Shown in pieces: positions 11,140-53,296 of a DNA stretch of 64,000 nt. This stretch comes from Candidatus Hydrogenedens sp. (GTDB lineage Bacteria; Hydrogenedentota; Hydrogenedentia; Hydrogenedentales; CAITNO01). The notes under the pieces are model-generated. The model searched no databases and was not told where the DNA came from. It saw only the letters and a program-made list of their open reading frames with translations. Every line of letters begins with the position of its first letter. The stretch's first letter is position 1. Location: the NCBI GenBank assembly GCA_012522755.1, contig JAAYJV010000048.1:16425-80424 (forward strand), written 5' to 3'. The position numbers and the translations under genes are program-made.

Positions 11140-11235
11140 ACTGAGTCTCGGTAATATCTCGGTCCCGGTTCCCACCTCTCCCAGATCCGACCGATCCGAC
11201 GGATTCCTCTGAAGAATAATCAAGACCTCAAGTCA
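11140..11235 (-). repeat. Degenerate copy of the dispersed intergenic repeat (left module)
   Basis: Read on the minus strand, this region follows the order of the 50.7-kb repeat: CTTGAGGT, a short A/T-rich stretch, CAGAG, GTCGGATCGGTCGGAT, then TGGGAGAGG and a GGG-rich tail. It is clearly related but diverged. It occupies the feo/GH42 spacer between the two divergent promoters. Confidence 0.5.
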
Positions 11236-20589: not shown

Positions 20590-20715
20590 TCAGGGAATAG
20601 GAACGAGGGGCAAGGGCACGTAGGGGAACGGCATGCCGTGCCCACTTTGTCCCCTTAGTCCATTCCGTCCATGACCTCCACTCCGTCCACTTGGTCCACT
20701 CTGTCCACTGAAAGC
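20590..20715 (-). repeat. Dispersed intergenic repeat, right module, with REP-like palindrome
   Basis: Read on the minus strand: AGTGGACAGAGTGGACC, then more GTGGAC/ATGGAC units, then GGGCACGGCATGCCGTtCCC and CTAC, followed by a C-rich CCCTCGTTCC tail. This is the same order as in the two units near 50.7 and 51.1 kb. The palindrome is at 20624-20643 with one mismatch, and GTAG stands at its foot at 20620-20623 on the plus strand. The 20466-20754 spacer holds nothing else I can support. Confidence 0.75.
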
Positions 20716-44429: not shown

Positions 44430-44520
44430 GTAAATAAGAGGCTTGAAGGGATTAATGGTCTCCGGGAAATCGGTCGGATCAGTCGGATCGGACGGATGTC
44501 GAAGGGACGCAGCTGTTACT
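44430..44520 (+). repeat. Degenerate copy of the dispersed intergenic repeat (left module)
   Basis: Contains GAGGCTTGAAGGGATT and then CGGTCGGATC-A-GTCGGATCGGACGGATGT, matching the middle of the units at 50.7 and 51.0 kb; the flanks diverge. Confidence 0.5.
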
Positions 44521-50561: not shown

Positions 50562-50684
50562 GGGGGCTGTCCTTTTTTAATAAGGTCTGTGGTTGTGTGC
50601 AGTACGCAATAATGGAATCATAGCAAATCCGGGAAGGAAGAAGAAATTGCTTTTGCCAGAGGGCTGTGCGCCAAGTGGACGGCG

Positions 50685-50892
50685 GGGCGAGCCTCTGGAT
50701 CTTTACAAAGACATTGAGGTTATAAAGATCTCTCAGAGTCGGTCGGATCGGACGGATCGGTCGGATCGGACGGATGTGGGAGAGGCTCGGGTTGGGGTCA
50801 GGACATTTATGATGAGTTAGTGGACAGAATGGACCGAGTTGGACCAATTGGGCACGGCATGCCGTGCCCCTACCTGCCCTCGCTCCTCGTCC
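50685..50892. repeat. Dispersed intergenic repeat unit 1 (~208 bp), with REP-like palindrome
   Basis: Near-identical to the unit at 50922-51111, differing by about a dozen substitutions and by one extra copy of an 18-bp tandem segment CGGTCGGATCGGACGGAT. It contains, in order, GGGCGAGCCTCTGGATC, TTGAGGTTATAA, the GGATCGGACGGAT part, TGGGAGAGGCTCGGG, TTAGTGGACAGAATGGACC and a perfect 20-bp palindrome GGGCACGGCATGCCGTGCCC (50850-50869). On the minus strand GTAG (50873-50870) precedes the palindrome, as in REP sequences bound by RAYT proteins. Confidence 0.85.
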
Positions 50893-50921
50893 TTCGCGCG
50901 GAAAAACCGGGAAGACGGCGG

Positions 50922-51111
50922 GGGCGAGCCTCTGGATCTTTACAAAGACATTGAGGTTATAACGATCTCACAGAGTCGGTCGGATCGGACGGATGTGGGA
51001 GAGGCTCGGGTTGAGGTCAGGACATTTATTATGAGTTAGTGGACAGAATGGACCGAGTTGGACTAATTGGGCACGGCATGCCGTGCCCCTACCTGCCCTC
51101 GTTCCTCGTTC
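50922..51111. repeat. Dispersed intergenic repeat unit 2 (~190 bp), with REP-like palindrome
   Basis: Second tandem-arranged copy of the unit at 50685-50892, same orientation, 30 bp apart, with one copy of the 18-bp segment. Its 20-bp palindrome is at 51069-51088, again followed by CTAC (GTAG on the minus strand, 51092-51089), then a C-rich tail of CCTCGTTCCTCGTTC variants to about 51165. The whole 50562-51263 spacer is made of these units and I see no gene in it. Confidence 0.85.
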
Positions 51112-51263
51112 ATCGCCCCTCATCCCCGTCCCTTGCCCTCGCTCCTTGCCCCTCATAACGCCTTTTGAGTCAGTCTATGTTAAAATATAAACTATTCAGG
51201 GACAGGCTGTTCCAAAGCCTTATCACAGGCTTGTGCAAAGCGACACCATAGAAAGGTATTTCA

Positions 51264-52585: not shown

Positions 52586-53296
52586 GTGGCTCGTATGGCT
52601 CGTTTTATTGTTCCCGGTTTTGTACACCATGTGGAACAACACAGTTCTCTGGACGCCCCTGTTTTTCGTTCCGACGGAGATTATAAAAAATACCTCAGTC
52701 TTCTGGCGGAGCATGCCCTGGAAAAAGGAGTGTCCATCTGGGCCTACTGTATTCTACCCCACAGCATTCATCTCGTTGTGGTTCCTCGCGACGAAGAGGC
52801 CCTGAGCTCCATGATTCGCGATGTGCATGCTTTCTACTCCGCCTATTATAATTTGACCTATGATCATAGCGGTACACTCTGGCGTGGTCGTTTTCAAAGT
52901 TGTGTCGTTGATGATCTGCTTGTGATGACGGCTGTTCGTCTGGTGGAATGTCACCCGGCGCATCTGGGGCTGGTGGACAGGGCCGAAAAATATGAGTGGT
53001 CCAGTGCGGCCGCCCACAGCAGCCGGGAGGAGCATCCTTTCCTGGAAAAAAGCTTTCCGCCTCCCGATATGCGTGACAACTGGCCTTCTTTTCTGAAGGA
53101 AAGTACACAGGCCGAGGCACTGGAAGAACAGCTTCAGATGTATACCCGTACGGGCCGTCCCTGGGGCACTCTGGAGTTTCTTCTTGGCCTCGAAAAACAA
53201 TATAATCGGAGTTTGATCCCTCGTAAACGGGGACGAAAACCCAAGCAGAAAAACAATGATGATGGAGTATCTGTTGAAGATGAGACAGAGGAGTAG
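52586..53296 (+). CDS. REP-associated tyrosine transposase (RAYT)-like protein, catalytic residues lost
   Basis: 236 aa, Y1/IS200-like fold. It follows the RAYT pattern: MARMARFIVPGFVHHVEQ at the start, VFRSDGDYKKYLSLLAEHALEKG, WRGRFQSC, HLGLVDRAEKYEWSSAAAH and the C-terminal GRPWGTLEFLLGLEKQYNR-SLIPRKRGRKPK with an AT-hook-like basic end. The usual MPNHVHL reads LPHSIHL, so the first His of the HUH motif is Ser, and the usual RYVELNPVRAGLV reads RLVECHPAHLGLV, so the catalytic Tyr is Leu. DNA-binding features remain. It looks like a domesticated or dead RAYT, close to REP-like repeats. Reading starts at the GTG near a GGAG site. Confidence 0.82.
   Translation: MARMARFIVPGFVHHVEQHSSLDAPVFRSDGDYKKYLSLLAEHALEKGVSIWAYCILPHSIHLVVVPRDEEALSSMIRDVHAFYSAYYNLTYDHSGTLWRGRFQSCVVDDLLVMTAVRLVECHPAHLGLVDRAEKYEWSSAAAHSSREEHPFLEKSFPPPDMRDNWPSFLKESTQAEALEEQLQMYTRTGRPWGTLEFLLGLEKQYNRSLIPRKRGRKPKQKNNDDGVSVEDETEE

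Follow-up and report, generated by a model that had tools for sequence, protein, structure and literature searches.

The doublet and its surroundings

The window, by which is meant the whole 64,000-nucleotide stretch of Candidatus Hydrogenedens DNA that was analysed, carries at 50685-51111 a pair of adjacent repeat units in a neighbourhood that encodes DnaJ, a DUF169 protein, a Gfo/Idh/MocA oxidoreductase, a RAYT-like protein and an ABC transporter. The features that matter for what follows are these:

50684-50897, minus strand: composite unit 1, consisting of 9-bp arrays, a REP core and the start of a 7-bp array, with an extra 18-bp tandem copy
50739-50775, strand unspecified: TCGG[AT]CGGA 9-bp array, the site of the 18-bp tandem copy difference between the units
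50850-50873, minus strand: REP core GTAGGGGCACGGCATGCCGTGCCC of unit 1
50921-51116, minus strand: composite unit 2, 96-97% identical to unit 1
51069-51092, minus strand: REP core of unit 2
51093-51155, strand unspecified: array of 7-bp period flanking the unit-2 core on its GTAG side, limits set by eye
52586-53296, plus strand: RAYT-like gene with its catalytic residues lost (HUH to SIH, Tyr to Leu), 1.5 kb from unit 2
20620-20643, plus strand: REP core with one mismatch (GTAGGGGAACGGCATGCCGTGCCC), with a 7-bp array 5' and a TGGAC-type 9-bp array 3'
20658-20709, plus strand: 9-bp array of 5.8 copies with consensus GTCCACTCC, next to the 20.6-kb core on its hairpin side
11180-11206, strand unspecified: 9-bp array module without a REP (TCCGACCGATCCGACGGA)
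44469-44497, strand unspecified: 9-bp array module without a REP (ATCGGTCGG)

The original prediction described the units of the doublet as near-identical and set apart mainly by one extra 18-bp tandem copy, and the alignments bear this out. Direct repeats pair 50684-50757 with 50921-50994 at 97% identity and 50757-50897 with 50976-51116 at 96%, and the additional segment of unit 1, TCGGTCGGATCGGACGGA, belongs to an array of 2.1 copies. Both units also contain the expected perfect palindrome, GGGCACGGCATGCCGTGCCC, followed by CTAC, which on the minus strand places GTAG directly at the foot of the hairpin. The first part of unit 2 folds into a long stem (GAGCCTCT/AGAGGCTC), and the 7-bp array beyond its core is the reverse complement of GAGGGGC/GAGGGAC-like heptamers. 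A search of the window against Rfam gave no match. The composite is about 200 bp long and the two cores lie head-to-tail with a spacing of 219 bp, an arrangement that favours duplication and slippage, the origin first suggested, over REPIN transposition. The doublet, then, is a head-to-tail tandem duplication of one such composite.

The other copies in the window fit their first description less closely. The one at 20590-20715 repeats the order of parts in the opposite orientation, as claimed, but its palindrome is not the perfect one, having a single mismatch (GTAGGGGAACGG). The supposed relatives at 11140-11235 and 44430-44520 do share the 9-bp array module, but palindrome and REP are absent from both. 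All copies had been called strictly intergenic; most are, but the 20620 core overlaps a predicted ORF whose 5' end appears to be over-extended.

A REP family with more than a hundred copies

The assembly from which the window comes (4,006,924 bases in 199 contigs, 95.2% complete) holds 137 palindromes at up to 2 mismatches over its 4.0 Mb, against 0 for a reversed-pattern control, so the further copies anticipated in the rest of the genome are indeed there. From 771 kb fetched around most of these palindromes, 114 sites were inspected and oriented by the foot, and 101 of them match the 24-mer perfectly. Conservation per base across the 114 is 96-99% in the GTAG and 97-100% in the core, falling off outside, and an A directly follows the hairpin in 96%. 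The arms of the core measure 10 bp in sequence, while its fold has 8 paired positions and a 4-nt loop; as single-stranded DNA, the 25-mer folds at -10.2 kcal/mol (z -4.2).

The cores avoid genes. Only 16 of the 114 overlap predicted ORFs in sampled DNA that is roughly 85% predicted coding (an approximate figure from a simple ORF caller), far from what a background rate of insertion into genes would give, and most of the 16 overlaps, that of the 20620 copy among them, seem to reflect 5' ends that were called too long. About half of the cores meet no predicted gene before the end of the fetched stretch, which is usually a contig end (L075, L078, L127 and L129 are examples in this genome). The assembly thus breaks at REP composites, and the true copy number may be higher.

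A perfect 20-bp palindrome between genes could in principle be a selected protein-binding operator or a transcription terminator rather than a mobile element. We regard this as extremely improbable, given that an invariant GTAG marks one side of the hairpin and the 3' side reads A-N-T-T with no T-run of the kind found in intrinsic terminators, that the cores show no concentration in convergent gaps (9 of 44), and that the element is nearly absent from most relatives yet abundant in scattered phyla.

Neighbouring cores were counted as pairs when they lay within 400 bp of each other, either inverted with GTAG outward (HH), inverted with GTAG inward (TT), or head-to-tail (HT). The tally was 18 HH, 18 HT and 1 TT. 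A spacing of 83-85 bp forms a sharp class that takes in 11 of the 18 HH pairs, and these carry similar spacers; 13 of the 18 HT pairs, a group that includes the doublet of the window, are spaced at 49-59 bp. Inverted doublets, for which a test had been proposed, do occur in the genome, at 18:1 for HH over TT, but the doublet of the window is not one of them. The resemblance to REPINs (Bertels and Rainey 2011, PMC3116915) lies in inverted REP pairs whose GTAG feet face outward and whose spacers are similar (the 11 at 83-85 bp), the difference in the reported pair being head-to-tail at 219 bp and in the many copies that are single or in tandem. Tandem arrays with a period of 49-50 bp and one REP core per unit were seen at L115:3641-3912, L128:15-137 and L106:34-107. 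The sampled DNA also holds 18 copies of a second GTAG REP class, GTAGGGGCGAAAAATCTTTCGCCC (for example at L080:9787, L114:103 and L116:7824), some of them in hybrid inverted pairs with the first class.

Taken together, the high copy number, the near-invariant GTAG, the hairpin, the intergenic placement and the inverted GTAG-out dimers make secure the identification of the 24-nt GTAGGGGCACGGCATGCCGTGCCC as a REP element, and uphold its first classification as a GTAG-foot REP. Members of the GTAG REP superfamily have GTAG (or GTRG) adjoining a palindromic stem of 5-13 bp (Di Nocera et al. 2013, PMC3733652). Judged by the descriptions of the 24 families of that superfamily rather than by their sequences, the present family shares with them the GTAG foot set directly at a palindrome of 20-40 bp, the many intergenic copies, the preference for HH with TT rare, the tandem HT clusters and the hybrid dimers of two classes, while copies in divergent gaps are more numerous here than has been reported (PMC3733652). 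It is a GTAG REP family: the class is already known, the family member is new. Two things set it apart from the superfamily as described, the fixed 7-bp and 9-bp arrays that flank it and the lack of a detected cognate RAYT in this genome (PMC3733652).

A polar composite of tandem arrays

Flanking the REP, in fixed polarity, are a 7-bp-period array on its GTAG side and a 9-bp-period array on the other. Over 66 flanks genome-wide, autocorrelation 5' of GTAG gives a lag-7 match of 0.452 (0.303 when shuffled), and 3' of the hairpin the lag-9 match is 0.378 (0.271 when shuffled). With similar flanks removed both periods persist, at 0.406 and 0.355, and 0 of 200 shuffles reach either value. By the same measure REP-less intergenic DNA has neither period, and both are absent around the same core in other phyla and around the second REP class here. 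No published description of a composite of 7-bp array, REP and 9-bp array was found in the literature searched.

The 5' flanks across the genome contain G-rich 7-bp arrays of the GGGGATA, GAGGGGC and GAGGGAC types. These could form G-quadruplexes, a parallel to the heptamer repeats of Xanthomonas and Nostoc, which are likewise intergenic G-rich 7-bp arrays (PMC4692102); unlike those, the units here are degenerate and joined to a REP.

Could the arrays, rather than the REP, be what spreads? Around the core, 5' and 3' modules combine for the most part independently of each other, 18 of the 19 sites at which a TGGAC-type array comes after a 7-bp array hold a REP (17 found by pattern and, in the window, the copy with one mismatch), HT tandems at 49-59 bp are common, and the pair in the window is itself a tandem duplication. 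All of this would suit a family that spreads chiefly because entire intergenic cassettes are copied, by slippage and by gene conversion at repeated arrays, with no transposition. That account is nonetheless unlikely, because some cores stand in apparently unique flanks (L082:6297, L130:7581), because the GTAG-out pairs keep a fixed spacing of 83-85 bp, and because identical cores elsewhere occur in unrelated flanks. It is possible, if rather doubtful, that the dispersing unit is the polar composite and not the REP alone, its modules spreading and recombining around the REP without the REP's own transposase. The 9-bp array is also found without a REP. We read the pattern as cassettes copied and reshuffled after the REP had arrived.

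Age of the expansion

A congener (G010, 96% complete) yielded no cores. Its orthologous locus is syntenic across all five genes named above, with amino-acid identities of 72-87%, or 60% for the RAYT-like gene. Between the flanking matches the window has about 640 bp, including both units, and the congener about 150 bp with neither, which means that the units were added later here or lost there. Recent expansion is the simpler reading, since copies here are near-identical and the congener has none. Searches for exact empty sites within the genome itself, by BLAST of the junctions, gave only alignments to other REP-bearing composites, and the match at one REP-less look-alike (L112:8624) was too weak for it to serve as an empty site.

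Another genome of the same family, G013 (L135-L138), carries a different REP, GGGCACGCCATGGCGTGCCC, with GTAG/CTAC, some copies having a foot on both sides. No Y1 transposase was detectable in that genome.

The same core beside RAYT genes of other phyla

REP hairpins of this class are spread by a small transposase. The exact 25-mer occurs in at least 82 stretches from at least 24 genomes of many phyla, among them Fermentibacteria, several Chloroflexi, NPL-UPA2, Accumulibacter, Oxalobacteraceae, Iodobacter, Methylococcaceae and Arenimonas, as well as Phycisphaerales, Caldimicrobium, Acidobacteria, Omnitrophota, Desulfuromonadales, Sumerlaeota and Desulfatitalea. The flanks of identical cores in those genomes are unrelated to the flanks here. 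We do not take the shared 24-mer to prove horizontal transfer: the GTAGGGGC type of palindrome allows about 4^6 inner variants and no more, so that convergence could also produce it. The exact 24-mer had no occurrence in the text of the literature searched.

Alignment of the RAYTs in the 25-mer genomes brings out one type, A1, in which the HUH histidines and the tyrosine are invariant and the consensus runs RRSIRL..YDY..GAYFVT..MPNHxHGI..variable loop..WQRNYYEHVIR..RIRxYIxxNP. The variable loop encodes GTAGGGGC palindromes in frame, and in five genomes (L325, L326, L327, L328 and L330) the exact core lies inside the A1-type coding frame, contributing the peptides VGARHAVP, GTACRAP or RARHAVPLR (GTA GGG GCA CGG CAT GCC GTG CCC reads as VGARHAVP, and in a shifted frame as GTACRAP). 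The linkage extends to the surroundings of the genes, as GTAGGGGC(N11-14)GCCC lies within 1.5 kb of 25 of 29 A1-type loci but of 0 of 65 other RAYT or Y1-type loci, the chance expectation for the A1 set being about 0.04 hits. In-frame REPs in the variable loop, often as an inverted pair and very regular, were seen in A1-type genes of many genomes (L321-L336, L352-L364), and in a Phycisphaerales genome (L333) the second REP class, GTAGGGGCGAAAAATCTTTCGCCC, flanks the A1-type gene.

The solved E. coli TnpA-REP 4er8 is a homologue of the A1 type. TnpA-REP subclass 2.4 is described as carrying in-frame REP insertions between HuH and Y and three G-C pairs at the stem base (PMC6006769), so that REPs embedded in RAYT genes are already published and no novelty of this work. 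The A1 type matches that subclass in its in-frame REPs, G-C stem-base pairs and wide taxonomic scatter, an assignment made by these features and not by the models of the subclass's authors. Where it departs from subclass 2.4 systems is that the RAYT was found in other genomes and not here (PMC6006769).

RAYT genes of this genome and its phylum

A profile of the A1 type gave 0 matches in the 95.2%-complete genome, with all 22-23 first-look candidates scored. A PF01797 search alone recovered a single Y1 gene; NF047646 found a second, intact one.

The RAYT-like gene at 52586-53296 was considered as the mobiliser and set aside. Its motifs read LPHSIHLV and RLVECHP where relatives of the same family have MTNHVHLV and RYVERNP, so that HUH and Tyr are both lost, as they are in the orthologue of the congener (LPDSIHLL and RIVEF). 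Judging from these residues, it is very improbable that the product works as a Y1 enzyme. In both species the gene has kept its place, with the oxidoreductase on one side and the ABC transporter on the other, and it shows a pN of 0.26 against a pS of 0.71 (saturated), and for these reasons its product is probably a domesticated protein, possibly a hairpin-binding one. Related copies beside an ABC transporter in two further genomes (L141, L142) have likewise lost the catalytic motifs.

The intact RAYT, on contig C167 (9040-9453; a 278-aa frame), is of another type. As the genome's one intact RAYT it might have moved the REP in trans: it has both the HUH (NHYHIV) and the Tyr motif (NYTHCNAV), and it went undetected in the congener, where REPs are lacking. 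That said, no GTAG palindrome occurs in the 20 kb fetched around the gene, and 0 of its 8 closest homologues have GTAGGGGC palindromes within 1.5 kb, which makes its involvement very improbable.

The expected cognate enzyme is thus lost, unassembled or not needed; about 5% of the genome is missing and the contigs break at these very repeats, so it may have gone unassembled. Among 62 genomes of the phylum, 9 hold 10 or more GTAGGGGC palindromes and 9 carry an A1-type RAYT; 3 belong to both groups, an association that is not significant (Fisher p 0.11). REPs of the GTAGGGGC kind without a detectable cognate are therefore common in the phylum. Association with a RAYT in the same genome is frequent in the GTAG superfamily, though not universal (PMC3733652), and REP-bearing genomes without a transposase have been noted before (PMC3733652, PMC6006769).

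Origin of the family and its significance

The original prediction invoked mobilisation by a RAYT. By analogy this stands, since the identical 24-mer lies in or beside A1-type RAYTs elsewhere; the A1 type itself was not found here. The most likely explanation is that a Y1 (HUH/tyrosine) transposase of RAYT type A1, matching TnpA-REP subclass 2.4, produced the copies, and we consider it probable, on the strength of that analogy, that such an enzyme acted in this lineage and has since been lost or was not assembled. It would have recognised the single-stranded hairpin with its GTAG foot, then cut and rejoined it. The family would have expanded after the split from the congener, the REPs arriving both singly and in inverted pairs with GTAG outward (putative REPINs, 83-85 bp). 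Cores would next have become fixed in composite intergenic cassettes of 7-bp array, REP and 9-bp array and been copied with them, and the doublet at 50685-51111 would have arisen later, by tandem duplication of one cassette and slippage of the 18-bp repeat.

Several observations weigh against the A1-type explanation. Besides the missing gene in a 95%-complete assembly, REP-rich genomes and A1 carriers overlap only weakly in the phylum, junction searches turned up nothing clean and no exact empty site, and the consistent arrays on both sides suggest that cassettes were copied beside, or instead of, transposition of single REPs.

A REP family of more than 100 near-identical copies is now placed in a little-studied lineage, and its sequence ties it to a single RAYT type of other phyla. 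It is a clear example of a REP that has expanded recently and whose cognate transposase is undetectable, which turns the persistence of REPs without a RAYT into a testable question. As a setting for a REP, the polar 7-bp/9-bp composite is out of the ordinary and worth examining in related strains, and if the composite reading is true, the REP would now work as a joint between exchangeable tandem arrays.
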